Shown: piece by piece, positions 40,973-56,866 of the stretch
Layout of the letters: each line of letters begins with the position of its first letter
How positions within the stretch are numbered: the first letter of the stretch is position 1
From: Kosakonia radicincitans DSM 16656
Lineage (GTDB): Bacteria > Pseudomonadota > Gammaproteobacteria > Enterobacterales > Enterobacteriaceae
Direction: 5' to 3'
DNA length: 64,000 nt
NCBI RefSeq assembly: GCF_000280495.2
Contig: NZ_CP018016.1
Coordinates: 5,270,001-5,334,000 of the forward strand
The notes under the pieces: model-generated
What the model was told of the DNA's origin: nothing
What the model saw: the letters and a program-made list of their open reading frames with translations, nothing else
Database searches by the model: none
Program-made: the position numbers and the translations under genes

Positions 40973-42016
40973 TTAGCTTACTGGCGGCGCAAGAGTGATC
41001 TCCGCCAACAAACGGAATAAACGACGATCGCTATCGAGCGGTAAGGCACATCCGGGAGCAAAAATGATCCGCCAGTCGCCACTCTCCTCGCGCAACTGCG
41101 TTAAGCGTTGTTCCAGACGCGCTTTCACCGCCTCCCAGTTACCACCACCAACATAAAAGTCCTGGTGCTGATCGATGCCGGCGATCAGCACTTTGTCGGT
41201 GCGGGCGCGGAGATCCGCGACGCGTGTACGCTGTTCGTCGGGCACACCGTGGGGCACGTTTTCCCAGTTGAACGCCTGCACCGGGTAATTCAGGTACGGC
41301 TCAAAAAGCAGATGGTGCTCGCCATGGATGTGCAGAATGTTGAACCAGGTTTTGTCTTTCACGTGATGTAACAGCGCTTCGTCATACGGACGGCAGAAAG
41401 AGTGAAATTCCTCTGCGCTCAGCAGATCGCTACGGGCAAACTGGGTGGCGAGAAAGATGCCATCAATACCCACATCCAGCAGCGCATCAAGGAAATTGAG
41501 GTTGGTTTGCAACACGGCGTCCAGCGCGTGACGCACGGCCTCCGGATACTGTCGCAAAAAGGACAGAATCGGCTCTGGCCGGGTTGACTGCGTTAACTCC
41601 TGCAGCCAGGTGAGCGGTGTAAAGAGCGTCGCGATGACCGGGACATTACCCCGATAGTGATCCACCAGCCCCCGAACGATGCCGATCTCTCTGGCCAAAA
41701 CGGAATTGTCTCTCTCCAGAACAGGAAGCGTGGCCAGCTCCTGGACACCAGTAATGGGGTAGCGGCGGAAAACGCCGGACCACTGAGTGGGATCGTCCGG
41801 GAACTGAATATCCGCGCCGTAGGCCTCGGCCAGATAGTGGCCGTTGGACATCACTTTGACGAAATCCCACTGGTTTTCATCCGTCAGACGGATGGTTTCC
41901 TGAATAAAAGCCTCGGGATCGCGATCGACGAGCGGCAGATGGAACCAACCAGCAATCGCGGGTCGGGCAAGCTGTTCCCCGGCAAGCAGGGCTTTGATAC
42001 GTGAGGTTGCGCTCAT
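40973..42016 (-). CDS. Uroporphyrinogen-decarboxylase-family protein
   Basis: This 347-aa TIM-barrel protein of the UroD/MtbA superfamily has family markers around WDFVKVMSNGHYLAEAYG, LFTPLTWLQEL and ILHIHGEHHLLF. The PSFC-type region is HSFCRPYDEALLHH. It is not HemE, which has a different N-terminal RxPVW block. Members include cobalamin- or zinc-linked methyltransferases. The ATG at 42014-42016 has GGAGCAAT upstream. Its neighbours suggest a role in sulfur metabolism, which is inference. Confidence 0.72.
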   Translation of the reverse strand: MSATSRIKALLAGEQLARPAIAGWFHLPLVDRDPEAFIQETIRLTDENQWDFVKVMSNGHYLAEAYGADIQFPDDPTQWSGVFRRYPITGVQELATLPVLERDNSVLAREIGIVRGLVDHYRGNVPVIATLFTPLTWLQELTQSTRPEPILSFLRQYPEAVRHALDAVLQTNLNFLDALLDVGIDGIFLATQFARSDLLSAEEFHSFCRPYDEALLHHVKDKTWFNILHIHGEHHLLFEPYLNYPVQAFNWENVPHGVPDEQRTRVADLRARTDKVLIAGIDQHQDFYVGGGNWEAVKARLEQRLTQLREESGDWRIIFAPGCALPLDSDRRLFRLLAEITLAPPVS

Positions 42017-42051
42017 AGTATTGCTCCAGTTTTGAGAAGGAGCTCTATTTT

Positions 42052-42116
42052 TTGCGCGCGTTTTGCCCACAGACAAATAATTAAAACGGCTTAGATTATG
42101 CGCAAAAAGCGCGCAA
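42052..42116. promoter_or_regulatory. Inverted GC-rich repeat upstream of the UroD-like gene
   Basis: TTGCGCGCGTTTTGC at 42052-42066 and, inverted, GCGCAAAAAGCGCGCAA at 42100-42116. They match over about 14 bases and lie just upstream of the start codon. It could be an operator. Confidence 0.4.
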
Positions 42117-42253
42117 GATAATCAAATGTTACTAGTGATATCAATATGTTATTTCAGCCCCCCACGAATGGCTGACTCGCCTGGACTTGCGCAATAGCCG
42201 TACCATTGGTGCCGCCAGTGACCAGCGCCACTGGCGGTGGCTGTACAGAAAAT

Positions 42254-43738
42254 TTAGCGTTCGCGCCAGGCATACGGCACGGCAGGCTGCCACTCATCGC
42301 CCAGCAGTTCAGGATCATCGTAATGGATAATGGCCTGATAATGGTGTTCGCGATCCTCATGATAAAGCTGCCCGGCAATGCTTTGTGCCAGAGTACGCGC
42401 GCCCTGGCTGATGCCTGGAATAAGGCCAACGACAAAACCATTGCTGAGCAGCGCCGGGTAGCTGAAGCAGTGTAAACGCGCCAGCGAAGACGGGGCACCA
42501 CTATGCTTCGCCTGAAACGCAAAATCGGCTCCGAGATAGGGATAACTCGCCAACTGCGCGTTCTGCTTATCCGCCGTTGGCTGCCAGGCATCGCCCCAGG
42601 TTTTGACCTGGTCCACCAGTGCATGAAATTCCGGGCGGGCGTGCCAGTCCAGGGCATAACCGGTGGCAAGGATCAGGTAATCCACCGGCACTTCACCCTG
42701 TGGAGTATGAATGACAATGCCCTCTCCCCGGGTTTCGATACGTTCAACCGGGGCGTTAAAATTGAACCAGGCATTGGGATGACGCGACACACGCAGCGTA
42801 CTGCCTTGCGGCGGCGGCGTCTGGACGGTGGCCATATGCTGGGCCAGCCGCCATTTCCACTCATCCGGCAGTTTAAAATAGCCCGCTTCAAGACCAGGGT
42901 TGCCAGCCCCTTTTGACAGATTCACCCGGGGGAAATCAGGACGACGGATCAGCAGTTCAACCCCCGCGGCTCCGGCTTCCAGCGCCGTGGCCGAAACGTC
43001 CATCGCCGTGGCGCTACCGCCAACGACTGCCACCCTGCGTCCGGCCAGGGTGGCAAAATCAACCGCTTCTTCCGAGTGCGCCCAAAATTGCTTCGGCACA
43101 TCGGCCACAAAATCCGGAATAGCAGGCCCGCCGAACGCATCCATACCGATGGCGAGGATCACTTTGCGCGCGTTCACCCGATGGGTCTCGCCGTGGTGCG
43201 AAAAGGTCAGTTCTACACGCTGCGGGTCCTGCAGATTCAGATCGGTCAGGATGTGATCGTTACGCACATCCAACGCCAGCACCTGGCGGTACCAGCGCAG
43301 ATACTGTGCCCATTGTAGACGGGGAATCTTGTCCAGCGCATCCCAGCCCTCAAGGCCAAATTGTGCTTCATACCAGGCACGAAAAGTCAGTGAAGGAATG
43401 TCCAGTGCAGGTCCGGTCAGGTGCTTAGGGGAGCGGAGTGTTTCCATACGCGCGGTAGTTGCCCAGGGGCCTTCATAATCTTTAGGCGCTTTGTCATACA
43501 GCACGGCGTCAATACCCTGCAGGCGCAGTGCGAATGCCGCCGCCAGACCTGCCATGCCTGCGCCAATGATCGCTACGTCCTGCCCCTGCTCGTCAGGTTG
43601 TTTCGGCAGCCATCGTTTAGCGGGCAGCGCCAGCCATTCCAGATCTTGTTTTACCCGGTCTTCCAGCGCGGAAAGCCCCCGATCTGCGGTTACTGATAAT
43701 TTTTCGGATGTTATGTGGGATATCGAAGAATGTGGCAT
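42254..43738 (-). CDS. Flavin-containing monooxygenase-like protein
   Basis: This 494-aa FAD/NADPH monooxygenase has an FAD fold (VAIIGAGMAGLAAAFALRLQ) and an NADPH fold (VAVVGGSATAMDVSATALEA). A central FMO/BVMO-like region is present (WSEF-like motifs replaced here by FRAWYEAQFGLEGWDAL), with ATG-type end motif YLILATGYALDWH. The substrate is unknown; S- or N-oxygenation fits the neighbourhood. It is divergent from the SsuA-like gene. Confidence 0.83.
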   Translation of the reverse strand: MPHSSISHITSEKLSVTADRGLSALEDRVKQDLEWLALPAKRWLPKQPDEQGQDVAIIGAGMAGLAAAFALRLQGIDAVLYDKAPKDYEGPWATTARMETLRSPKHLTGPALDIPSLTFRAWYEAQFGLEGWDALDKIPRLQWAQYLRWYRQVLALDVRNDHILTDLNLQDPQRVELTFSHHGETHRVNARKVILAIGMDAFGGPAIPDFVADVPKQFWAHSEEAVDFATLAGRRVAVVGGSATAMDVSATALEAGAAGVELLIRRPDFPRVNLSKGAGNPGLEAGYFKLPDEWKWRLAQHMATVQTPPPQGSTLRVSRHPNAWFNFNAPVERIETRGEGIVIHTPQGEVPVDYLILATGYALDWHARPEFHALVDQVKTWGDAWQPTADKQNAQLASYPYLGADFAFQAKHSGAPSSLARLHCFSYPALLSNGFVVGLIPGISQGARTLAQSIAGQLYHEDREHHYQAIIHYDDPELLGDEWQPAVPYAWRER

Positions 43739-44170: not shown

Positions 44171-45112
44171 ATGTTCAAAGGCTCACGCCCTGCTTTACTT
44201 ATGCTATTTCTCGGTCTGTCCGCCTCCACTCTGGCAAAAGCGCCGGAAACAGTGAATATCGGTTATCAGAAAGCCAATATCTTCGCCCTGCTGAAATATC
44301 GCGGTAGCCTCGACGAATCATTTAAGAAACAGGGGATTGCCGTGCGGTGGGTGGAGTTTCCCGCCGGGCCGCAAATGCTGGAAGGATTAAATGTCGGCAG
44401 TATCGATCTGGCCGCCACCGGCGATGCACCGCCCGCATTCGCCCAGGCCGCAAAAGCCGATCTGGTATATCTGGCCCATTCTCCGGCTAACCCGAAAACG
44501 GAAGCGATTGTCGTGCCGGAGAATTCCGCAATTCGCAGCGTGGCTGACTTAAAAGGTAAGCGCGTAGGGCTTAACAAAGGCTCCGACGTTAACTATCTGC
44601 TGGTGGTGGCGCTGGAAAAAGCAGGGCTAAGCTATAAGGATATCACCCCGGTTTATCTTACTCCCGCCGACGCCCGCGCGGCTTTTCAGCAAGGAGCCAT
44701 TGACGCGTGGGTGATATGGGATCCCTACCTGGCGGAAGTCGAAACCAACGCCAAAGCACGTCAGGTAAGCAATGCCGAAGGGCTGGTTCCGCACTATACC
44801 TTCTATCTGGCAAGCCGCAAATTTGCTGAAAATTATCCGGATACGGCAAAACAGGTTGTCGATGAACTGGGTACCTTAAGCAACTGGGCCAATGGCCATC
44901 AGAATGAAGCGGCGGGGATCCTGTCCACCTCAACCGGCCTGGATAAAGCCATCTGGCAGAAAACCCTCGCCCGTCTGCCCTATGGCGCTGAACGGATGAC
45001 CCCGACGGTGTATAACGAACAACAGACGCTGGCAGATACCTTCACCCGTGTCGGTTTATTGCCGGTGAAAGTGGATGTTCGTAGCGCCACCTGGTCGCTG
45101 GATAAACCGTAA
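44171..45112 (+). CDS. Orphan SsuA-like aliphatic sulfonate binding protein
   Basis: This 313-aa periplasmic protein has a signal peptide (PALLMLFLGLSASTLAKA). SsuA/TauA markers follow: VNIGYQKANIFALLK, VEFPAGPQMLEGL, GDAPPAFAQAA, DLKGKRVGLNKGSDVN and DAWVIWDPY. No ssuB or ssuC gene is adjacent. It is clearly related by eye to the C-terminal sensor domain of the sigma-54 regulator at 54923. It ends 3 bp before a strong terminator. Confidence 0.88.
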   Translation: MFKGSRPALLMLFLGLSASTLAKAPETVNIGYQKANIFALLKYRGSLDESFKKQGIAVRWVEFPAGPQMLEGLNVGSIDLAATGDAPPAFAQAAKADLVYLAHSPANPKTEAIVVPENSAIRSVADLKGKRVGLNKGSDVNYLLVVALEKAGLSYKDITPVYLTPADARAAFQQGAIDAWVIWDPYLAEVETNAKARQVSNAEGLVPHYTFYLASRKFAENYPDTAKQVVDELGTLSNWANGHQNEAAGILSTSTGLDKAIWQKTLARLPYGAERMTPTVYNEQQTLADTFTRVGLLPVKVDVRSATWSLDKP

Positions 45113-45147: not shown

Positions 45148-46371
45148 TCAGCCCTGCGATTTCTCGCCGTCGCCAATCTGCCAGATAAAAGTTGGCGCTT
45201 CGCCATTAACCAACCAGTTACCGACATTTCGCGCCTTATAAATCACCGGATTATGCGATGCCACGGTGCGCGCGTTACGCCAGTGGCGATCAAGCGCCTT
45301 GCTCACCCGCGTATCCGACGCGCCGAGGGCATTGAACAGCTCAGTAGCCGCACGCGGGATCCAGTCGCTGGCAATCACCTGCGCCTGCGCCGCTTCGACT
45401 TCAGCCAGACGATTGCGCTGTTCAATGAGCGCCTCGTCGCCGCTGGCATGCACAAGGTAGGCCTGATGCAACGATTCTGCCGCCTGCAATACTGCCGCCC
45501 GCGTTGCCCAACTCCAGCTACTGATTTGTCCCACCACCTGGAGTACCTGAGCATCGTCGCGCGGTACGGCGGCATTGCCGTGGCTGTACATCCGGGTTCG
45601 CTTTTTCACGCCTGTGGCGACGTCACGCTCAACCGCCAGGCCGATTCCCGCCAGCGTCGCCAGCAGGATATGCTGATAAAACGCGGTCTGATAACGAAAG
45701 CGCTGTGCAAAGTCATAGACGTGATCCTGCTCCACCTGCGCCTGTTTGAAGCGGGTCGTGCCGCTGCCGGTCAGACGCTGACCGAAGCCGTCCCAGTCAT
45801 CCTCGCGTTCAACGCTAGGCTGGCTGGTACTGACCAGCGCAATCACATCCCCCTGGTTATCGCTGCGCCGGGCGAAGACATCTATCCAGTCGGCAAACAG
45901 CGTACCGGTGCTATAGAATTTCTCACCGTCCAGTTGCCAGCCGCCTCCGACGGGCGTTACGCGGGTGAATACCTCCCCCAGCTTGACCGCGCCGATTTCG
46001 GTCCAGCCGCTGCCCACCAGCTCGCCGTCGAGGAAGCGACGGAACCAGCGATCGCGCGCTGGCGAGTCGGGTTGATTGAGTCGGTCTTCAACGAAGGCGA
46101 AATGCGCCCGCAGCGCCTGTGGCAGGTTGGAGTCAGCCTGGGCCAGCTCAATAAGCAGCGCAATTAATTGCGGCAACGACGCGCCCCAGCCGCCCTTTTC
46201 CCGCGGAATACGCACCGTGCCGAATCCGGCCTCTTTCAGCCAGCGGATCTGCTCATCGGGCAGGATGCGGTTTTGTTCGCGCACCGCCGCTCCCTGCGCG
46301 ATACGGGCAAAAATCGGTCGGAAGGTCGCCGCAAGCTGTTCATAGTCGGTGCCGGTAGAGAGTAAAGTCAT
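45148..46371 (-). CDS. SfnB/DszC-like acyl-CoA-dehydrogenase-fold monooxygenase
   Basis: This 407-aa flavin-dependent oxygenase belongs to the group called SfnB sulfur-acquisition oxidoreductase, related to DszC. Markers are the N-terminal LKEAGFGTVRIPREKGGWGA, the central GGGWQLDGEKFYSTGTLFADWI and the C-terminal LGASDTRVSKALDRHWRNAR. The ATG at 46369-46371 has GAGGAA upstream and lies 10 bp after the MFS stop. The longer frame overlaps the MFS gene. It is last in the operon. Confidence 0.86.
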   Translation of the reverse strand: MTLLSTGTDYEQLAATFRPIFARIAQGAAVREQNRILPDEQIRWLKEAGFGTVRIPREKGGWGASLPQLIALLIELAQADSNLPQALRAHFAFVEDRLNQPDSPARDRWFRRFLDGELVGSGWTEIGAVKLGEVFTRVTPVGGGWQLDGEKFYSTGTLFADWIDVFARRSDNQGDVIALVSTSQPSVEREDDWDGFGQRLTGSGTTRFKQAQVEQDHVYDFAQRFRYQTAFYQHILLATLAGIGLAVERDVATGVKKRTRMYSHGNAAVPRDDAQVLQVVGQISSWSWATRAAVLQAAESLHQAYLVHASGDEALIEQRNRLAEVEAAQAQVIASDWIPRAATELFNALGASDTRVSKALDRHWRNARTVASHNPVIYKARNVGNWLVNGEAPTFIWQIGDGEKSQG

Positions 46372-46381
46372 TAGCTGTTCC

Positions 46382-47803
46382 TCAATGATGGCTGTCGTCA
46401 ATGTCATGTTGGGTAGGCTCATGGCGTACCGCGAGCAGGAAGAAAATCGGGATAATGGCGGCCAGCGATACGACCCAGAACATTTGCGTACCAAGCGATG
46501 CCTGCAGCAACGGCAGGACAAACAGCGCCAGCGCGCTGCCAATACCGGAAAGCGCGCGGCTGAAGCCGACCCCGGTGGCGCGAATAGCGGTTGGGTATGA
46601 AAGCGCCGGATAGATCATCAACTGCGCGCCGGGACCAAAGCCCTCGGCAAACAGCCACAGCCCCAGCATCGCAATCGCCAGTACTACGCCCAGCGCGGCC
46701 TGCGGCTGCCCCACCAGCGCAAGGATGATCAGGGCGATAAACTGCAGCGCGAACCCGGCAATCGCGACGTGCCGCGACGGGTATTTCCATGCCAGGTGCA
46801 TGCCCAGCAGCCCACCGGTAAAAGCGAACAGCGCATTGAGCCCCAGCGAGGCGGAGATGGTTTCGAACACGCCAGCGCCAAGGAATTGGGCGAGAATGGA
46901 CGGCAGGAAAAAGGCGATCGCCGTATACTCAAATGAGATACAAACGTTCATCACCCCGGCGACAATGGTGCGCTCGCGATACGGTTTTTCAAACAGCACG
47001 CGAAAGCTCACTTTGGGTGGCGGAGCAGGACGTTCGACCGGTGCTTCGTGAGCGTTGATCCCGTAAGAATCGCGCAGAATACGCACAGCCGAGGCCAGAT
47101 CGCCCTGGTTGGCCGCCCACAACGGCGATTCATTCATGAATTTGCTGCGCACGGCAATAATCAGCAGCGCCGGAACTGCGCCGAACAGCAGCGATGCGCG
47201 CCACAGCCAGTCCAGATGCTCTTTTGGCAACAGGAAATAGAGCCCAAAGATGATTAAAAAACAGACCGTCGAAGCGGCGTACCACATTGGGCACCAGGCT
47301 GCGAGCCGCGCGGCCTTATTGCCTTTCCCGGCAAAGCGGGAAAACTCGGCCAGATACGACATGGCGACCGGCAGATCGATCCCGACGCCAATCCCCATCA
47401 GAAACCGCGCGCCAATTAATACCCAGACGTTCGGCGCCAGCCCCGCCGCAATCGCCGAGACCACAAAAAATAGCATATCGGCCATAAACACCGAATAACG
47501 GCCATATTTATCCGTTAGCCAGCCGCCGATTAAATTACCGATAATCGTGCCGACCATTATTGACGAGGTGACAATGCCGGTTAAAAGCGGCGAGAGTTGA
47601 AATTCCCGCACCACATCATCAATACCGTAAGAGAGCGTGGTTAAATCATAAGCGTCGAGAAATACACCACCGAGCGCGAGGAATACAATCATCCGCGCAT
47701 ATTTACTTTGCTCCCTGCCAGAATTAATTAATCGCGCCACATCCCCGACGCTACTCACCGGTGCCGAAACGGCACCAGCATTATCAACAGACAGCGTGCT
47801 CAT
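46382..47803 (-). CDS. MFS transporter, sugar-porter/SHS-like
   Basis: This 473-aa protein has 12 predicted membrane helices. Family motifs are GGWLTDKYGRYSVFMAD between helices 2 and 3 and RFLMGIGVGIDLPVAMSYLAEF. It probably imports or exports an organic acid or sulfonate. It is separated from the MetQ-like gene by 174 bp that may hold an extra promoter. Confidence 0.85.
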   Translation of the reverse strand: MSTLSVDNAGAVSAPVSSVGDVARLINSGREQSKYARMIVFLALGGVFLDAYDLTTLSYGIDDVVREFQLSPLLTGIVTSSIMVGTIIGNLIGGWLTDKYGRYSVFMADMLFFVVSAIAAGLAPNVWVLIGARFLMGIGVGIDLPVAMSYLAEFSRFAGKGNKAARLAAWCPMWYAASTVCFLIIFGLYFLLPKEHLDWLWRASLLFGAVPALLIIAVRSKFMNESPLWAANQGDLASAVRILRDSYGINAHEAPVERPAPPPKVSFRVLFEKPYRERTIVAGVMNVCISFEYTAIAFFLPSILAQFLGAGVFETISASLGLNALFAFTGGLLGMHLAWKYPSRHVAIAGFALQFIALIILALVGQPQAALGVVLAIAMLGLWLFAEGFGPGAQLMIYPALSYPTAIRATGVGFSRALSGIGSALALFVLPLLQASLGTQMFWVVSLAAIIPIFFLLAVRHEPTQHDIDDSHH

Positions 47804-47977: not shown

Positions 47978-48856
47978 TTAGTCTGCTGAGACCGGAACCA
48001 GTACGTCTTTGACCAGCGGATCGTCAGTGGTTTTTAACCACGTCTGAATACGCGGATCGGAAAAAGCCTGTTTTAATTTGACAATATTCTCCTGCGATAA
48101 ATACGGAGTCCCAATAACTAATTGCGAGGCAAATGTTTTAGGCGCGGGAGGAAATAATATGCCTTTTTCCCGCGGGACTTTTCCGGCATCAAATTGCGAG
48201 ACATAACCAATAGCGGCATCCACCGAATTCAGCGCTCGCGGCATGGTCAATAAATCCAGCTCTTTAAAATTGAACTGATGCGGGTTGCCGACAATATTTT
48301 TCAGTTTCGCCGTGCGCGGCTCAACCGCCGGATCGAGTGAGATTAACCCTATCCTTTGCAGCAACCACAATGCCTGCCCCTGGTTGGCGCCATCATCCGG
48401 CACGACGAGGGTCGCCCCGGCAGGCAAATCCTGCACCGATTTATAACGGTCGGAATAGATCCCAAAAGCCCACTGGAAAACCGGCACAGTCGTCGAAAGC
48501 GCAAAGCCGTTGGCGTCCACCACCTGCTTCAGCCACCACTGATGTTGATAGATAGTACCGGCATACTGTCCCTCCGCCACGGCTCTGTCCGCCTGTACCG
48601 GGTCCTGTACGCCCACCGCCTCCAGCTTCAGGCCATAATCAGGCGCAATATGCTGATTGATGTACTCAATAATTCGTTGCTCGCCCGCCATCGCCGGTTC
48701 GTAGTGAATTTTTAACGTCGTACCGAAAACGACCTGCGGTGCCTGCGTGTATCCGCGCCACCACCAGAATGCGACAGCCAGCGCCGCAATGACTGCCAGC
48801 GCCGCCAGCCATGGCCAACGGCGGGCCTTACGGAGTTCAAACTGTTCTGTTGTCAT
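47978..48856 (-). CDS. MetQ/NlpA-like binding protein with membrane anchor
   Basis: This 292-aa NlpA-family binding protein opens with a basic head and a hydrophobic helix (WPWLAALAVIAALAVAFWWW) with no lipobox Cys, so it is probably tethered by an uncleaved anchor. The domain shows HYEPAMAGEQRIIEYI, VPVFQWAFGIYSDRYK and VVPDDGANQGQALWLLQ. The substrate is probably an S-containing compound, although the family is best known for methionine. It overlaps the permease gene by 4 nt. Confidence 0.85.
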   Translation of the reverse strand: MTTEQFELRKARRWPWLAALAVIAALAVAFWWWRGYTQAPQVVFGTTLKIHYEPAMAGEQRIIEYINQHIAPDYGLKLEAVGVQDPVQADRAVAEGQYAGTIYQHQWWLKQVVDANGFALSTTVPVFQWAFGIYSDRYKSVQDLPAGATLVVPDDGANQGQALWLLQRIGLISLDPAVEPRTAKLKNIVGNPHQFNFKELDLLTMPRALNSVDAAIGYVSQFDAGKVPREKGILFPPAPKTFASQLVIGTPYLSQENIVKLKQAFSDPRIQTWLKTTDDPLVKDVLVPVSAD

Positions 48857-49551
48857 GAAGAAATCCCCTGCGTGTGGCGAAGCGTATTGACCAGACGGTC
48901 GCCAAAGAATTGAATGATCTGAATTGTGGCGATTAGCACGACAATGGTGGCGATCATGATGTGATTGTCGAAACGCTGATAGCCGTACACTACCGCCAGA
49001 TAGCCGATCCCACCCGCACCGATAGTGCCGGCAATCGCTGAATACTCGATCATCGACACCAGGTTAAGCGTGACCGCCGCCACCAGAGCAGGCAGCGCCT
49101 CGCTGAGTTGCGCGTGGCGGATTATTTGCCAGCGCGAACCGCCGCACACCAGCCCCACCGCGGTAACCTCCGCTGGGAGTTCGCCCAGAGCGTTTTCCAC
49201 CAGACGGCCAAAAAATGGCACGCCGGCGGCTATCATCGGCACCACGGCGGCAGGAATGCCAATAGTGGTGCCCGTAAGCCAGAACGTGAACGGGATAATC
49301 GCCGCCATTAACACCAGAAAGGGCAGAGAGCGCCCCATGTTGACGCCCCAGTTAAGCACCTGGTAAAGCGCAGAATGTGGAAATAATCCCCGCGGCGAGG
49401 CGTTGAATAACACCACGCCCACCACACCGCCAAGGGTCACCACAAACAGCATCACAATGGCAACCATCAGCCAAGTTTCACCATAAGCAGGCAACAGCAA
49501 GGTATGAATTTCATGCCACGGCGTATCCTGGCTTATCACTGTCGGTTTCAT
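48853..49551 (-). CDS. MetI-like ABC permease
   Basis: This 232-aa permease has five or six membrane helices and the MetI-type motif GRLVENALGELPAEVTAVGL. It overlaps the ATPase gene by 4 nt, so the three transport genes are translationally coupled. Confidence 0.88.
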   Translation of the reverse strand: MKPTVISQDTPWHEIHTLLLPAYGETWLMVAIVMLFVVTLGGVVGVVLFNASPRGLFPHSALYQVLNWGVNMGRSLPFLVLMAAIIPFTFWLTGTTIGIPAAVVPMIAAGVPFFGRLVENALGELPAEVTAVGLVCGGSRWQIIRHAQLSEALPALVAAVTLNLVSMIEYSAIAGTIGAGGIGYLAVVYGYQRFDNHIMIATIVVLIATIQIIQFFGDRLVNTLRHTQGISS

Positions 49552-50567
49552 ACCGCCTCCTGTAGCTCGGGGGCATGTGCAAGAATTTCCGCCGCAATGC
49601 CCAATTGTGCTAAAAGTGCGGTCATTCGATCCACCGACAGCCGTTCTCCCTGAAATCGGACGCCGACCTGTAAACGCCCCGCCAGTTGACCGTTGATCAC
49701 TTCTACATGGCCGCCGAGTAAATCTATCTGTAGCGCATACTGTTGGCTCAGACGGCTGATCCAGTCAGTCGCCACCGGCACATCCCAGCGATAGCTCAGA
49801 CGCAGCAGCAGATCGCTGTGAACGGCGACGGGCGACAGCGGCAATAGCTGCTGGCCAAGCAGAGAATCCGGACGGGCCAGCAGCTCTTTCACCTGCCCGT
49901 ACTGGACTATCGCGCCATCGCGGATTTCCGCCACCGCATCCGCCGCAGCGCGTACCGCATCCATTTCATGAGTAATCAGGACTATCGCCAGCCGGTACTC
50001 ATCACGTAGCTGTCGGAGCAAACCCAGTACCGTGGCGGTCGCCTGAGGATCCAGTCCAGACGTGGCCTCGTCCGCCAGCAGTACCGACGGACGTAATGCC
50101 AGCGCGCGAGCGATACCAATACGCTGACGCTGTCCGCCGGAAAGCTGAGACGGATAAGCCTCCGCTTTGTGACTGAGTCCTACGCTCTCCAGTAATTCAC
50201 CGACCCGCGCCTTAATGTCGCGTTCCACCACGCCCAGATACTCCAGCGGCACTGCGATGTTTTGCCACGCCGTTTTACGATTCAGCAGCGCCGAGGATTG
50301 AAAAACGGTGCCGATCGCGCGCCGTTCACGCCGCAGCGCCTCCCCCGACAGTAATGACAAGTCTTTGCCGTTAACCTTGATGCTGCCGCTATCGGGGCGC
50401 TCCAGCAGGCTGATGCAGCGCGCCAGCGTCGATTTCCCCGCACCGCTCGGTCCGACCACCGCGGTGATGGAGCTGGTGGGTACCCTGAGCGATAAACCCT
50501 TCAGCACCTCGCTGACGCGGCCATCCGCCGTGCGGTAGCGTTTATGCAGATTATCGATATCAATCAT
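49548..50567 (-). CDS. MetN-like ABC ATPase with NIL domain
   Basis: This 339-aa ATPase has Walker A GPSGAGKSTL, signature LSGGQRQRIGIARAL, Walker B LLADEATSGLDP and switch His in ITHEMDAV. A C-terminal NIL-type ligand-sensing domain covers about residues 260-335. It overlaps the monooxygenase gene by 4 nt. Confidence 0.9.
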   Translation of the reverse strand: MIDIDNLHKRYRTADGRVSEVLKGLSLRVPTSSITAVVGPSGAGKSTLARCISLLERPDSGSIKVNGKDLSLLSGEALRRERRAIGTVFQSSALLNRKTAWQNIAVPLEYLGVVERDIKARVGELLESVGLSHKAEAYPSQLSGGQRQRIGIARALALRPSVLLADEATSGLDPQATATVLGLLRQLRDEYRLAIVLITHEMDAVRAAADAVAEIRDGAIVQYGQVKELLARPDSLLGQQLLPLSPVAVHSDLLLRLSYRWDVPVATDWISRLSQQYALQIDLLGGHVEVINGQLAGRLQVGVRFQGERLSVDRMTALLAQLGIAAEILAHAPELQEAV

Positions 50568-51970
50568 GCCGCCGTCTCCTTCGCCCCGGCATCGTTTCGC
50601 ACGCCGCGACGGTATTCTGCCCCCGGATGCGGCGCGGTCAGACGTGGCCCGGCACCAAACAGTTTTTCGCGCAGCGTGCCTTCCCGGTAATCCTGCTTAA
50701 AGACGCCGCGTTTTTGCAGCTCTGGTATTAATAGCTCCACCACGTCGCGGAAGGTTTCATGCGTAACGGCATAGGCCAGATTGAAGCCATCAACATCGGT
50801 CTCCTCGACCCAGGATTGCAGTTCATCGGCCACCGTTTCCGCGCTGCCGACGAGCAGCGGGCCAAAGCCGCCGATGCCCACCCAGTCAGCCAGCGCTTCT
50901 ACCGTCCATTGACGCTCCGGATCGGCGGTGGAAAACGCCTCTACCGCCGACTGGATGGCGTTGGTATGCAGGTATTTCAGCACCTGGTCCGGCCGATACT
51001 GACCAAAGTCAATGCCGGTCCAGCCGGAGATCAGCGCCAGCGCGCCCTCATAGCTAACGTATGATTTGTATTCCTGCCATTTGGCCTGCGCCTCGCGATC
51101 GGTTTCGCCCACGATCACCGTTTGCAGATTGAAAATCAGGATGCTGCGCGGATCGCGCCCGGCTTCCGCGGCGCGGCGACGAATATCCGCGACCGTCTTC
51201 TTCAACAGGACTTTCGACGGCGCGGCAACAAAAACGCACTCGGCATGCGTGGCGGCAAACTGTTTTCCGCGGCTGGAAGCCCCCGCCTGATAGAGCACCG
51301 GCGTGCGTTGCGGCGACGGCTCGCACAGATGGATTCCCGGAACGGAGAAAAAATTGCCCTGATGGTTAATCGGATGGATTTTCTGCGGATCGCTAAAAAT
51401 TCCCCGTTCGCGATCGCGCAAAACTGCGCCGTCTTCCCAGCTACCTTCCAGCAACTTATACACAACGTCGAGGTATTCATCGGCGTAGTCGTAGCGCGCA
51501 TCATGGTCAGTCTGCGCCTGATGCCCAATATTGCGTGCGCCACTTTCCAGATACGAAGTAACAATATTCCAGCCCACCCGGCCTTTGGTCAGATGATCGA
51601 GCGTAGACAACCGACGGGCGAATGGATAGGGATGCTCAAATGACAGCGATGCGGTCAGACCAAAGCCAAGGTGTTCCGTCACCAGCGCCATCGGGGTTAT
51701 CAGCGCCAGCGGATCGTTTACCGGCACCTGCGTCGCCTGACGGATCGCCGCATCGCCATTCCCGTTTAATACATCGTAAACGCCAAGCACATCGGCAATA
51801 AACAAGCCGTCAAATTTGCCGCGCTCCAGAAGGCGCGCCAGATCGACCCAATATTCCAGATCTTTATACTGCCAGGAACGGTCGCGCGGATGGGCCCACA
51901 AGCCCGGCGACTGGTGACCGACACAGTTCATATCAAACGCGTTAAGGCGAATCTCTCGTTGCGATGGCAT
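50564..51970 (-). CDS. NtaA/SnaA/DszA-family FMN monooxygenase
   Basis: This 468-aa bacterial-luciferase-like monooxygenase needs FMNH2 from a separate reductase. Family markers are RLNAFDMNCVGHQSPGLW, FDGLFIADVLGVYD, DHLTKGRVGWNIVTSYLESG and YQAGASSRGKQFAATHAECV. The ATG at 51968-51970 is preceded by GGAGAG. Relatives cleave C-N or C-S bonds in chelators and sulfones. It is third in the operon. Confidence 0.88.
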   Translation of the reverse strand: MPSQREIRLNAFDMNCVGHQSPGLWAHPRDRSWQYKDLEYWVDLARLLERGKFDGLFIADVLGVYDVLNGNGDAAIRQATQVPVNDPLALITPMALVTEHLGFGLTASLSFEHPYPFARRLSTLDHLTKGRVGWNIVTSYLESGARNIGHQAQTDHDARYDYADEYLDVVYKLLEGSWEDGAVLRDRERGIFSDPQKIHPINHQGNFFSVPGIHLCEPSPQRTPVLYQAGASSRGKQFAATHAECVFVAAPSKVLLKKTVADIRRRAAEAGRDPRSILIFNLQTVIVGETDREAQAKWQEYKSYVSYEGALALISGWTGIDFGQYRPDQVLKYLHTNAIQSAVEAFSTADPERQWTVEALADWVGIGGFGPLLVGSAETVADELQSWVEETDVDGFNLAYAVTHETFRDVVELLIPELQKRGVFKQDYREGTLREKLFGAGPRLTAPHPGAEYRRGVRNDAGAKETAA

Positions 51971-52039
51971 AGCGCTCTCCACGGTGCGTCCAGATACTGG
52001 CGCACGCTTATTAATTAAAAGGATAAAAAGGGAATAAAA

Positions 52040-53437
52040 TCAGGACACGGGACATCGGGCGGGCAGGCTGAAACCCAGCGTCGCCAGCGTTTCTCCGGCA
52101 ATGGCGGCAGCATGATCGGCCACCTGCGGCAACCCCATCAGTTCACCGAAACGCCCCCTCGCCGCTGGACCGCAAACCAGGATTTTCGGCATCGACTGCC
52201 CTTCTCGTCCTATCGCGTGGGAACGGGCATCGACATCCAGCCCTAACCCCAGCGCATCCGCGCGAATCAGCCCACGCCGCGTCAATTCCTGTAACAATGG
52301 TTGGCTTTCAGTTAAGGCATTGTGCGCGGGTCCAGTGGTCAGGATCAGATGATCGACGGTCAGCGTACAGGGCTGCCCGCGCCGCGGACTCAGCGTCAGC
52401 GTGAGCGTTCCCGTGTCGCTATCCAGCGCCGTCAGTCTCGCGGCCAGCACCTTCAGACTACCGTCATTGCTACGTTGCGAAAGAACATCAGCCGCCTGCG
52501 GCGCGATCCGATAACGATGCACATCCCAGTAGCTGCGCAGATGACGCAGGAAGCGCTGGCGATCGGCGAAGGTTAAACCTTGCCAGATGGTCTGCCCCTG
52601 ATTGCGCACCGCATCCAGCACGACCTGCCAGGGCAACCCCTGTTCAGCCGCCCGGGAGATATCTTCCCGGATCCGCCGTAAACGCTGGCGCAGTGTTCCC
52701 TGCCGATAGTCGCCCGGCCACTCCTCGCTTTCTCCGCTAAGGTTGCTCCGCGAGAGCAACCCACGGCGGGAGAACGCCGTTACCGGTCCCCGATGTCCGA
52801 GCCGGGTCATTGCTGCGAGGGTATCCGCCATTGTCAGCCCGGTTCCCATCACTGCCACCCGCGCATTCGACGCAATCGCCGTCAGCACCTCAGGCCGCCA
52901 GGGATTGGCAATCAACGCGGGATGATCGCTAAAAGGAGCGACCAGCCGCGGCAGTGACGGCGGTGGATGGCTTATCGCCAGCACCAGCAGATCGGCCTCC
53001 AGAAGGCGGCCGGTATCGGTTGTCACGCCCCGTTCGTCAAAGGTCAGAGCCTGCTCGCGTAAATGCGTCAGCCGTCCACCGCTGTTTCGCGCCGCGTTGG
53101 CGAAACGCTGTGCAACATAGACCCCAAACTGCGCACGCTGCGGGTAAACCGTCCCCTCCTCGCGCAATGCCTGCGGATCGTCGGCGAAGGCTGCCTGCCT
53201 GCGGTACCAGCGGTCAAACGCGCCCTCTTCTTCATCAGCCAGCCGCATCCGCGCGGCGGGCACGTTTATACGGTGAGACGGTTCCGTTGTGGAATAAGCC
53301 ACCCCGGCGCCGGGGACGGCGCGGGGCTCCAGCAAAATGACCCGCACGCCTTCAGGTGCCAGGCGCAGTAATTCGATGGCCACGGCTGCGCCGCTAAAAC
53401 CGCCGCCGACAATGATCACCTGCGGCTCAGTGTTCAT
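52040..53437 (-). CDS. FAD/NAD(P)-binding oxidoreductase
   Basis: This 465-aa protein of the PF13454 group has VIIVGGGFSGAAVAIELLRL at the N-terminus and a second nucleotide fold (ARVAVMGTGLTMADTLAAMT). The C-terminal ILVCGPAARGRFGELMGLP is typical. It may supply electrons or oxidise an intermediate for the neighbouring monooxygenases. The ATG at 53435-53437 begins the FAD fold. Confidence 0.8.
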   Translation of the reverse strand: MNTEPQVIIVGGGFSGAAVAIELLRLAPEGVRVILLEPRAVPGAGVAYSTTEPSHRINVPAARMRLADEEEGAFDRWYRRQAAFADDPQALREEGTVYPQRAQFGVYVAQRFANAARNSGGRLTHLREQALTFDERGVTTDTGRLLEADLLVLAISHPPPSLPRLVAPFSDHPALIANPWRPEVLTAIASNARVAVMGTGLTMADTLAAMTRLGHRGPVTAFSRRGLLSRSNLSGESEEWPGDYRQGTLRQRLRRIREDISRAAEQGLPWQVVLDAVRNQGQTIWQGLTFADRQRFLRHLRSYWDVHRYRIAPQAADVLSQRSNDGSLKVLAARLTALDSDTGTLTLTLSPRRGQPCTLTVDHLILTTGPAHNALTESQPLLQELTRRGLIRADALGLGLDVDARSHAIGREGQSMPKILVCGPAARGRFGELMGLPQVADHAAAIAGETLATLGFSLPARCPVS

Positions 53438-53478
53438 CGCCTGATGCCTTAACGAAGACATAAAGCATAAATCCCCCT

Positions 53479-54651
53479 TCAGCTGGCGCTGACCTGTTTA
53501 ACCGGACGTTTATCGCCACCGATCGTTTCGCCAAACGGGCCGGTATTGACGCCGCGTACCTTAGACTGGGCAGAGTTACCCAGCGGCAGTAGCGGCATGA
53601 CCAAATCAGCGAAGCGGTGCGCCTCTTCCAGATGCGGATAACCGGAAAAAATAAAATTCGTAATGCCCAGCGTCTGATATTCACGGATGCGCTCCGCAAC
53701 CTGTTGCGGGTTGCCCACCAAGGCGGTTCCCGCACCACCGCGGACCAGGCCAACCCCCGCCCACAGGTTCGGCGCAATGCGCAGGTTGTCGCGGGAGCCT
53801 TTGTGCAGAGCGCTCATTCGCGCCTGGCCTGCGGAATCCATCCGGGCGAAAATCTTTTGCGCCTCGGCGATGACATCATCATCAAGATGAGAGATCAGGC
53901 GGTCAGCGGCAGCCCAGGCCTCCTCTTCCGTTTCGCGAACGATGACATGTAAACGGATACCGTATTGCAGAGTACGGCCGCGAGCCGCGGCGCGTTCGCG
54001 GACGATAGACAGCTTCTCAGCCACCAGCTCCGGCGGCTCGCCCCAGGTCAGATAGGTGTCGATTTGCCCGGCAGCAACGTCGATTGCCTCCGGGGAGGAT
54101 CCGCCAAAATAGAGCGGCGGGCCGTCCTCCTGCACCGGGGGGAACAACACTTCCGCCCCTTCAACATGAATATGCTCGCCCTGGTAGTCCACTTTTTCGC
54201 CCCGCAGCAGTTGCGTATAGACGTCGAGAAACTCTCTGGTCACCTGATAACGCTCGCTATGGCTCAGAAAGATACCGTCGCCTTTGTTTTCCACCGGATC
54301 GCCGCCAGTCACAACGTTAATTAGCAGTCGCCCTTCCGACAGGCGGTCCAGAGTTGCCGCCATACGCGCTGCCAGCGTCGGCGGTTGCAAACCGGGACGA
54401 ACCGCGACCAGATAGCGCAAACGGCGGGTCAACGGAACCAACGCCGAGGCAACCAGCCAGGAATCTTCACAGCTTTTTCCGGTTGGGATCAGCACGCCGT
54501 AATAGCCGAGGCTGTCCGCCGCCAGCGCTACCTGCTGCAGATAGGGTAGATCAACGGGACGTCCGCCCTCGGTGGTACCCAGATAACGCCCGTCGCCATG
54601 GGTCGGTAAGAACCAGAACACGTTGATATTATCGTCAGCTTTCTGCGTCAT
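53479..54651 (-). CDS. SsuD-like alkanesulfonate monooxygenase
   Basis: This 390-aa FMNH2-dependent monooxygenase is close to SsuD/MsuD. Markers are [54 protein letters not shown] and [20 protein letters not shown]. It would release sulfite from an alkanesulfonate. It is first in the operon. The ATG at 54649-54651 has AGGAAAT upstream and lies about 58 bp from the expected sigma-54 start of transcription. Confidence 0.9.
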
Positions 54652-54720
54652 TATCCATTTCCTATATAACCATATTCGGTATTTATCGAAGAGTTGTTTT
54701 AATTTTGTTATATGGGTGTT

Positions 54721-54736
54721 AGCGATAATCATGCCA
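54721..54736 (-). promoter_or_regulatory. Sigma-54 promoter of the sulfonate operon
   Basis: On the minus strand, TGGCATGATTATCGCT matches the TGGCACGNNNNTTGCW consensus at 10 of 12 informative positions, with the GG and GC doublets exactly spaced. It stands upstream of the SsuD-like gene and next to a divergent sigma-54 activator gene. The start of transcription would be near 54709. Confidence 0.75.
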
Positions 54737-54798: not shown

Positions 54799-54848
54799 CT
54801 GTTGCGAATGCGCCAGTTGATGCGCACAGCCTGTTGCATTGGCAACAG
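54799..54848. promoter_or_regulatory. Tandem palindromes, probable activator binding sites
   Basis: CTGTTGC-attg-GCAACAG at 54831-54848 is a perfect palindrome. CTGTTGC-gaat-GCGCCAG at 54799-54816 is a weaker copy (5 of 7 in the right arm). Start-to-start spacing is 32 bp, about three helical turns. They lie about 100 and 130 bp upstream of the predicted sigma-54 start, the normal place for an enhancer-binding activator. Confidence 0.7.
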
Positions 54849-54922: not shown

Positions 54923-56866
54923 ATGCTGAATCCTGAATCCCCATCCGCCACGCCCGTACTGATCGACCCGGCGTCTAAAGCGTTTCAGAGCCTGCTGGAT
55001 AAACTGGCCCCGACCGAAGCCACCGTGTTAATTGTCGGCGAAACCGGTACGGGTAAAGAGGTGGTCGCCCGTTATTTGCATCACCATAGCGCGCGTCGTC
55101 ACCAGCCTTTTCTCGCCGTTAACTGCGGCGCACTGAGCGAAAGCCTGGCGGAAGCAGAGTTGTTCGGACATGAAAAAGGTGCCTTTACCGGAGCGCTGCA
55201 AGGTCATCCCGGCTGGTTTGAAGCGGCAGAAGGCGGCACCCTGCTACTCGATGAGATCGGTGAACTTAGCCTGCCCCTACAGGTTAAGCTGTTGCGCGTA
55301 TTGCAGGAGCGTGAAATCACCCGCGTCGGCTCGCGAAAAGCGACGAAAGTCAACGTGCGCGTGCTCGCGGCGACTCACGTCGATTTAGCGCAGGCTATCC
55401 GCGAGCGCCGTTTTCGTGAAGATCTCTACTACCGGCTCAATATCGCTATCGTGCCGCTTCCGCCCTTGCGCCAGCGACGGCAAGATATTCCGCTGCTGGC
55501 GAATCATTTCTTAACACTCTACGCACGCAGGTTAGGACGTCCGACCCGCCGTCTGGCGCCGGAAACTCTGGCGAAGCTGATGGACTATTCCTGGCCCGGC
55601 AACATCCGCGAACTGGAAAATACGCTGCACAATGCCGTTCTGCTGAGTAAAGAGGAGGAAATTACTCCCGCACAGCTCCGCCTGACCACGCTGAACGATG
55701 CCCCACAGCCCGCGACGGACAATGCTCTGGATGAGTTAATCCGACAACAGTTCGATCAGCCCGGCGAACCGCTATGGGAACGTTTCACCGGAGCGCTGAT
55801 TCGCGGCGCGATGGCGCGCTGCGACGATAATCAAAGTCAGGCGGCAGCGTTACTGGGGATTAGCCGCCATACATTACGCACCCAGTTGGCGAATCTCGGG
55901 GTGATTAAAAGCCGTCGTCGGGGAACAACCTCATCCCGACCGTCCTCCAGAGTCGTCTCTGCGGATCGTGAGTTACGGATTGGCTATCAGCGTTTCGGTA
56001 ATCTGGGGATATTAAAGGCGCGTCAGTGTCTGGAAACTGCCTTTGCCAGCCTCGGTGTAAGCGTGCTGTGGAGCGAATTCCCGGCCGGGCCGCAATTGCT
56101 ACACGCCCTCGCCTGCAATGAAATCGATTTCGGCACCACAGGCGAAGCACCACCGGTCTTCGCGCAGGCCAGTAACAATGAACTGGTGTATGTAGCATGG
56201 GAGCCACCGGCACCTCAAAGCGTCGCGATGGTGGTGCCGCAGCAAAGCGAGATCGCCTCTATTAGCGATTTACGCGGTAAGCGTATTGCGCTCAATAAGG
56301 GATCAAACGTCCACTGGTTATTATTGCAGATACTGGAAGAAGCCGGACTGGGGCTGCAAGACGTCAAAGTGGTTTACACGCCGCCAAAATACCCGCTCAC
56401 TGCCAGCGATTATCTGGCAGTAGATGCCTGGATGATGTGGGATCCGCTACTGAGCGAGGCCGAAGGAGCTGCGGAGTTGCGGGTTGTCGCCAGCGGTGAA
56501 GGTCGGGTGCATAACCACCAGTTTTATCTGTCACGTCGCGACTATGCCACGCGCAACGGCGACATCATGCATCGGTTGATGGAAGAGCTGGCGCAAACCG
56601 GACAGTTTATCGATCGCCACCGTGACGAGGCCGCCAGCATGCTCTCTGCGGAACTGGGCATTAACGTAGCGTCGCTCAAACGGGCGCTGGCCCGCCGCAG
56701 CCATCGCCCACGGCCGATGGATCTTAAGGTGATACGCGCCCAGCAGGCCATAGCCGACCGCTTTTACGCCCTCGGGCTCATCAGTAAAGCCGTTTTGGTG
56801 CGGGAAGCCGTCTGGTACGCACAGCCGATAAATGGCGGGACCAGCATACTGCTGAGTGTTGATTAA
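54923..56866 (+). CDS. Sigma-54 activator fused to an SsuA-like sensor domain
   Basis: This 647-aa protein has no N-terminal receiver or GAF domain. The AAA+ domain starts at once: Walker A GETGTGKE (39-46), sigma-54 contact loop GAFTGA (86-91), Walker [13 protein letters not shown] (about 104-115) and [12 protein letters not shown] Fis-type helix-turn-helix follows ([18 protein letters not shown], about 310). From about 350 to the end is a full substrate-binding fold ([52 protein letters not shown]) with no signal peptide. It probably senses a sulfonate in the cytoplasm and drives the divergent operon. Confidence 0.9.

Follow-up and report, generated by a model that had tools for sequence, protein, structure and literature searches.

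A conserved fusion of an SfnR-like sigma-54 activator with an SsuA-like domain as a candidate one-component regulator of organosulfur scavenging

The 64,000-nucleotide stretch of Kosakonia radicincitans DSM 16656 analyzed here (contig NZ_CP018016.1, positions 5,270,001 to 5,334,000; hereafter, the window) contains a gene for a fusion protein, in which a sigma-54 activator module is followed by a binding-protein domain of the SsuA type. This protein is probably a one-component sigma-54 activator of organosulfur scavenging, with its cytoplasmic C-terminal SsuA domain sensing a sulfonate-type anion and gating the AAA+ ring. The reading draws on the architecture, its conservation, a probable target promoter with its sites, and a retained anion pocket, each established at the level of sequence. 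More specifically, it is slightly favored that a C-terminal cytoplasmic binding domain of the ATP-binding cassette (ABC) type, closing on an imported sulfonate, exerts allosteric control over the AAA+ hexamer from the far side of the DNA-binding domain; one protein would then combine the intracellular receptor for a sulfonate with the activator of the genes for its breakdown.

Domain architecture and conservation

Profile searches placed the sigma-54 AAA+ domain first, a Fis-type helix-turn-helix (HTH) second, and an SsuA-fold domain last (Table 1). The features of sigma-54 activators, namely an AAA+ domain with Walker A, Walker B, and GAFTGA motifs and a Fis-type HTH, were found in the fusion, and the GAF[T/S]GA loop was present in all 31 fusion copies compared. 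SsuA was the nearest fold for the C-terminal domain, the score of which exceeded the cut-off of TIGR01728 and was under that of PRK11553. While fold and family score were those of SsuA transport proteins, an export signal and a periplasmic site were not; a sequence check found no signal-like hydrophobic stretch ahead of the SsuA domain. The order reported by the first-pass annotation, AAA+ with GAFTGA, then Fis-type HTH, then an SsuA fold without an export signal, is thus real and conserved.

The family sample consisted of 295 genomes from the family of the window, its own genome included, and matches were accepted at E ≤ 1e-100. Of the 35 genomes with a match, 33 covered both halves, one (G109) covered the AAA+-HTH half only, and one (G293) carried a broken gene. 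An artefact, that is, an assembly join, a frameshift, or a two-gene read-through, would agree with annotation pipelines calling the protein a regulator in some cases and an ABC binding protein in others. However, its probability is close to nil, since all 31 translated copies were one open frame, both halves were spanned in those 33 genomes, and the fusion also occurs in Alphaproteobacteria. A frameshift or join between the HTH and the binding domain, which had been named as a threat to the annotation, was accordingly dismissed. Among plasmid records of the fusion, the naming differed between 'sigma-54-dependent Fis family transcriptional regulator' and 'aliphatic sulfonate ABC transporter substrate-binding protein'.

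In four comparisons, the ratio of nonsynonymous to synonymous change (dN/dS) was 0.03–0.06 for the AAA+ part and 0.05–0.10 for the SsuA part, with high synonymous change. These values indicate that purifying selection is acting on both halves; the linker changed faster than either.

Table 1. Coordinates of the fusion regulator, the sites upstream of the divergent operon, and neighboring genes in the window
Feature	Positions	Strand	Remark
Fusion regulator gene, 647 amino acids	54923..56866	+	intact single open reading frame (ORF)
AAA+ sigma-54 interaction domain and lid, residues 17-264	54971..55714	+	with Walker A, GAFTGA, and Walker B
Fis-type HTH_8, residues 292-319	55796..55879	+	
Variable linker, residues 328-348	55904..55966	+	
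Cytoplasmic SsuA-fold domain, residues 349-632	55967..56818	+	
Sigma-54 promoter of the divergent operon	54721..54736	-	TGGCATGATTATCGCT
Promoter-proximal palindrome	54800..54815	not applicable	degenerate in the window
Distal palindrome	54832..54847	not applicable	TGTTGCATTGGCAACA, perfect
Alkanesulfonate monooxygenase (SsuD/MsuD-like)	53479..54651	-	first gene of the probable target operon
FAD/NAD-dependent oxidoreductase-like gene	52040..53461	-	gene of the operon
NtaA/DmoA-family FMN monooxygenase	50564..51982	-	
MetNI/MetQ-like ABC importer	47978..50567	-	three genes
Major facilitator superfamily (MFS) transporter	46382..47803	-	
SfnB-like sulfur acquisition oxidoreductase	45148..46542	-	244.8 bits, under the SfnB cut-off of 430.9
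Stand-alone SsuA-like binding protein	44171..45112	+	with signal peptide

Divergent promoter and operator sites

Genome searches were performed with the full-length query; in most of them, the best three to four candidates per genome were scored, and in one, all were scored. In addition, species-representative contigs were scanned with an alignment from the HTH to the substrate-binding domain, which confirmed 180 stretches, and the locus counts given below use the best 80 of these 180. The matches of the 80 loci extended from query residue 1–4 to 331 of 331. At 78 of the 80 loci, a divergent alkanesulfonate monooxygenase gene (at least 75% identity, partial matches included) was found, the remaining two being L061, which has lost the gene, and L062, which is cut off by the end of its contig. 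In the fetched stretches, the FAD/NAD oxidoreductase gene was found at 73 and the NtaA/DmoA-type monooxygenase gene at 71 of the 80 loci.

To the 80 divergent regions that of the window was added, and six of the 81 were left out for lack of the anchor motif (L061, L062, L099, L111, L112, and L117), though L061 was later found to carry the promoter. In all 75 aligned regions, TGGCA[CT], followed ten bases past the GG by the promoter GC, was located 117–122 bases upstream of the anchor motif of the monooxygenase, and the strict sigma-54 pattern was found in none of 150 antisense or reversed controls. Moreover, all 75 regions contained two TGTTGC-N4-GCAACA-like palindromes, with tGtTGCAaatGCagCA and TGtTGCAttTGCAaCA as majority sequences, which were spaced 32 bp apart in 65 regions and 31 bp apart in 10; the nearer palindrome began 77–81 bp ahead of the -24 element. 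Because this divergent promoter is conserved, the alkanesulfonate-monooxygenase operon is probably the target of the fusion regulator, the link from promoter to regulator resting on position and conservation. The first-pass annotation had offered no target, and a probable one is hereby added to it. As the promoter falls within the longer ORF originally listed for the monooxygenase, the start of this gene was re-set to 54651.

In the own genome of the window, the combined palindrome-plus-promoter pattern matched this operon only, and a backward control pattern matched once. A wider regulon in this genome was considered and rejected, since the combined pattern was unique to the operon. A looser half-site pattern gave two further matches, and the only other exact palindrome in the genome (L126) was not accompanied by a suitably spaced sigma-54 site.

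The leader that follows the sigma-54 promoter and precedes the monooxygenase gene (54652-54720, minus strand) was well conserved, containing TATAAC ... GTTAT-ATAGGAAA, and this conservation goes beyond a plain ribosome-binding site.

Origin of the two halves

The halves were treed separately, the rows being 16 enteric fusions, three alphaproteobacterial fusions, and chosen comparison sequences. In the AAA+ tree, the 19 fusions formed one group (87/85) adjoining nine stand-alone SfnR-like activators (89/93), and the resulting 28-row clade was separate from other activators (100/98). In the SsuA tree, the same 19 fusions formed one clade (99/92), separate from 36 stand-alone SsuA rows. Support in the AAA+ tree is moderate, and the Methylocystis row is a long branch in the SsuA tree. 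The AAA+-HTH half was approximately 50–55% identical to SfnR-like proteins; this lineage is assigned to SfnR from context, rather than from a curated SfnR model. SfnR itself, an activator of sulfone and sulfonate use, is not known to have a sensory domain, and the protein stops after the HTH. The SfnR-like proteins at L038-L044 end shortly past the HTH as well, at 366–372 amino acids.

In the trees of both halves, the enteric fusions are grouped with those of Azospirillum, Methylocystis, and the alphaproteobacterial genome G955. A single old event that joined an SfnR-like activator to an SsuA-like protein is therefore likely, and its product was subsequently passed on by descent and probably also by transfer. 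The earlier proposal that the regulator arose when an activator was fused to an SsuA-like protein is retained, while three of its details were revised. The Azospirillum and Methylocystis fusions point to an old event instead of a local birth. The SsuA-like protein at 44171 was rejected as the donor of the fused domain, because it belongs to a 14-row clade of its own (100/100), apart from the fused domains. Finally, the sensor had been described as moved to the C-terminus; as the activator half groups with SfnR-like proteins that also lack an N-terminal sensor, no sensor was moved, but one was added.

The distribution of the fusion is patchy, because the three further genomes sampled from the genus of the window all lack it. 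Carriers among the 80 loci included Klebsiella, Raoultella, Pluralibacter, Pseudocitrobacter, Kluyvera, Pantoea, Erwinia, Serratia, Rouxiella, Hafnia, Lonsdalea, Brenneria, and others. The fusion was present in 72 records of the plasmid collection, of which 65 were from Pantoea, and one-piece matches were obtained at 48% for Azospirillum sp. B510 and at 45% for Methylocystis iwaonis. No fusion from another family was found in 398 genomes of the phylum, where the three fusions seen were those of family members, or in 295 genomes of the order, and none was found in 368 other genomes of the class sample. The alphaproteobacterial class sample contained one (G955) among 385 genomes. A megablast search of complete E. 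coli genomes gave no match to the gene, which excludes close copies only. Accordingly, the fusion is rare beyond the family in the sampled genomes. In L125, a record titled Pseudomonas sp. T1-3-2 plasmid p1 and elsewhere assigned to Pseudomonas silvicola, an enteric-type cluster is located on the plasmid, and its fusion gene is split into several pieces.

In Azospirillum, Methylocystis, and G955, the neighbors in the last being identified by reading ORFs, the fusion is adjoined by sfnG, ssuD, FMN reductase (msuE), and acyl-CoA-dehydrogenase/SfnB-type genes. These loci were searched with a matrix trained on enteric sites, with 300 shuffles per locus as the control. At all three, a pair of palindromes 31–33 bp apart was found upstream of a TGGCAC sigma-54 site, preceding the FMN reductase/sfnG operon, and the best palindrome of each locus outscored all 300 shuffles. 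The second palindrome of the pair was weaker in Azospirillum (score 10.0) and G955 (score 7.0). In these two, a second palindrome-promoter unit lay directly behind the fusion gene, ahead of amidohydrolase-ssuD genes. The second palindrome of Methylocystis (L145, 15419), before ssuD, was accompanied only by the weak sigma-54-like site TGGCCC-N7-TTGC, and no palindrome was found directly ahead of the Methylocystis fusion gene. As TGTTGC-N4-GCAACA palindromes and sigma-54 sites also precede msuE and sfnG at the SfnR-type locus L205, the DNA specificity of the fusion may stem from the SfnR lineage.

Genomes lacking one part of the unit

The presence of the monooxygenase was compared between six of the 35 fusion-matching genomes and 22 genomes without the fusion, namely 21 of the 260 such family genomes and G868 from the order sample. 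A monooxygenase with at least 80% identity was found in all six fusion-bearing genomes and in one of the 22 others. Among the remaining fusion-less genomes, 18 of the 22 had only a homologue with 61–66% identity, and three had none at that threshold. The cases G011 and G109, as well as the locus L061 considered below, are single ones. The fusion-less exception, G011, kept the operon, with no strict promoter pattern and no palindrome above a score of 8.1 in 16 kb; an ORF read as an SsuE-like reductase lay upstream of the operon. In G109, the promoter, the palindromes, and the FAD/NAD and NtaA-type genes were retained. Its regulator, with 352 amino acids and GAYTGA instead of GAFTGA, stops just past the HTH, and no monooxygenase match was found in the genome at E ≤ 1e-20. 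Since G109 lacks both the sensor domain and the monooxygenase, it suggests a link between the SsuA domain and the compounds handled by the monooxygenase, to which L061 is a counter-case. G293, in which the fusion gene is broken and both the close monooxygenase and the sites are absent, is as expected for decay of the whole unit.

Ligand pocket of the SsuA domain

The residues with which X. citri SsuA coordinates the sulfonate or faces its alkane chain, including Ser141, are given in the accessible part of a structural report (PMC3839906). Their counterparts in the fusion are Q356, G389, G407, N462 (for Ser141), and W506, each invariant in all 19 fusions compared. Hence, the Q, G, G, and W of the sulfonate-coordinating set are identical to SsuA, and the Ser141 position is Asn. 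This exchange was rejected as specific to the fusion, since Asn was found in 23 of 38 stand-alone SsuA rows. As the pocket residues are kept, no signal stretch is present, and the divergent gene encodes an MsuD/SsuD-like monooxygenase, an intracellular sulfonate appears to be the likeliest ligand. Beside W506, residues 504-505 are Met-Met in the enteric fusions (Met-Leu in one of 16), with Ala/Val-Ile in most SsuA rows and Ala/Gly-Ile in the alphaproteobacterial fusions. The pocket of the enteric fusions may be smaller.

Other roles of the domain were weighed against these data. It could be the sensor of a co-repressor, with sulfate, sulfite, or another indicator of sufficient sulfur shutting off an otherwise active SfnR-like activator, as might be expected from the stand-alone SfnR-like relatives without a sensor and from an anion-coordinating set that is common to oxyanion binders. 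This is unlikely, because the pocket is of the SsuA type, with a conserved Trp (W506) at the position that in X. citri SsuA is turned toward the alkane chain, and the domain is nearest to SsuA in fold, although both points leave room for a small anion. Quite improbable is a domain that takes no small ligand and serves oligomerization or binds a partner reporting transport, such as an importer subunit. A remodeled helix segment, in which one column is Leu in 19 of 19 fusions and Arg in 42 of 52 other rows, agrees with such a role, as does the enteric copy G109, which manages without the SsuA domain; however, the invariant pocket residues and the purifying selection on the domain argue against it. 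An enzymatic function, conceivable since the fold is common to the desulfinase DszB and Thi5, is considered very improbable.

Proposed mechanism

With a sulfonate-sensing domain as the preferred reading, the fusion would bind the two TGTTGC-N4-GCAACA-like palindromes, approximately three helical turns apart, and its AAA+ ring would remodel the sigma-54 RNA polymerase at the divergent promoter, thereby activating the alkanesulfonate-monooxygenase operon. Remaining in the cytoplasm, the C-terminal SsuA domain would bind an imported sulfonate-type anion, presumably a substrate or intermediate of the enzymes of the operon. When empty, the domain would restrain the AAA+ ring, and closure on the ligand would free it. 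This release would resemble that in CmpC, in which nitrate is reported to free the ATPases from a C-terminal binding-protein-like domain. The sign of the response could also be reversed, with sulfate or sulfite as the co-repressor.

Several observations weigh against this mechanism. In the window only, one strict sigma-54 match was observed with 1.15 expected, and palindromes with at most two mismatches numbered six, with 4.13 expected; because these counts alone do not beat chance, the case for the sites rests on conservation among related sequences. No clear palindrome-promoter unit was found at the SfnR-type locus L206 or the SfnR-like loci L202 and L203. The structural model does not resolve a contact of the SsuA domain with the AAA+ ring. 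Moreover, the locus L061, from a Pantoea metagenome-assembled genome, has no monooxygenase gene, yet the whole fusion, the promoter, and the palindromes are kept. Thus, the ligand need not be a substrate of the monooxygenase.

Comparison with known systems

SfnR is a sigma-54 activator of dimethyl-sulfone use in Pseudomonas, according to the accessible parts of two papers (PMC8234197 and PMC13352529). Like SfnR, the fusion has an AAA+ domain and an HTH without an N-terminal sensor, its gene neighbors are of the msu/sfn/ssu type, and its palindrome is related to that found with sigma-54 sites at the SfnR-type locus L205. The AAA+-HTH half is of this lineage; unlike SfnR-like proteins, which end shortly past the HTH, the fusion carries an entire SsuA domain as well and forms its own clade. 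From SsuA, the periplasmic alkanesulfonate-binding protein (3ksx, 2x26), it differs in the missing signal peptide, the position behind the HTH, and the separate clade.

For the proposed gating, CmpC appears to be the best precedent by analogy. In the available text on CmpC, the ATPase domains are kept blocked by a C-terminal binding-protein-like domain, and nitrate binding lifts the block (PMC13249358), and a similar C-terminal regulatory domain is described for cyanobacterial NrtC in part of another paper (PMC6603209). In this proposed parallel, a C-terminal binding-protein-like domain of a cytoplasmic ATPase would sense an internal anion. In Azotobacter, VnfZ, a binding-protein homologue without a signal peptide, modulates vnf gene activation with VnfA3 in trans, as described in an excerpt of PMC9542535. 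As with the fusion, a signal-peptide-less binding-protein homologue would thus modulate a sigma-54 activator; unlike the fusion, VnfZ and VnfA3 are separate proteins acting in trans, with another binding-protein family and vanadium.

Regulation of sigma-54 activators is described as acting via N-terminal domains, or none, in the accessible part of PMC7057263. Within the portion at hand of a survey that mentions approximately 136 domain compositions in Pfam (PMC3162934), none of the four named architecture classes Ia, Ib, Ic, and II has a signal domain behind the HTH; class Ic resembles the fusion in its AAA+ domain with a C-terminal HTH and in the absence of an N-terminal signal domain. The accessible parts of an Acinetobacter regulome study (PMC5382811) and of PMC12316311 contain nothing on this fusion. 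The view that the architecture is undescribed therefore stands for the open-licence literature, in which no description was found, subscription papers being outside the search.

If true, sensing by a conserved C-terminal domain of the binding-protein type would represent a novel means of gating a sigma-54 AAA+ ring, and the layout raises the question of how the signal crosses or bypasses the DNA-binding domain. The fusion suggests how a sensor-less SfnR system acquired an input, and it supplies a probable regulator, sigma-54 promoter, and operator sites for a sulfur-scavenging operon whose carriers range from Klebsiella and Serratia to Pantoea and Erwinia. It would also be a natural model for making biosensors from transport binding proteins.

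Neighboring genes

The monooxygenase of the window was 70% identical to that of the msuE-linked Pseudomonas-type locus L205 and 67% identical over 348 residues to SsuD of its own genome. The substrates of MsuD and SsuD range from C1 to longer alkanesulfonates, as stated in part of PMC8234197. In the fetched stretches, the MFS gene was found at 55, the SfnB-like gene at 43, and the MetNI-like genes at 38–39 of the 80 loci.

The SsuA-like gene of the 44171 type was immediately behind the fusion gene at 16 of the 80 loci. In this protein (44171-45112) and its 13 relatives, Asp at the position of SsuA Ser141 and Asn at that of His143 were found in 14 of 14 rows, which is unlike most SsuA rows, and the ligand of this clade may differ from plain alkanesulfonates. 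Divergent from this gene, positions 40973-43738 encode MtaA/CmuA/uroporphyrinogen-decarboxylase-like and flavin monooxygenase-like proteins, possibly forming a further organosulfur or methyl-transfer pathway.
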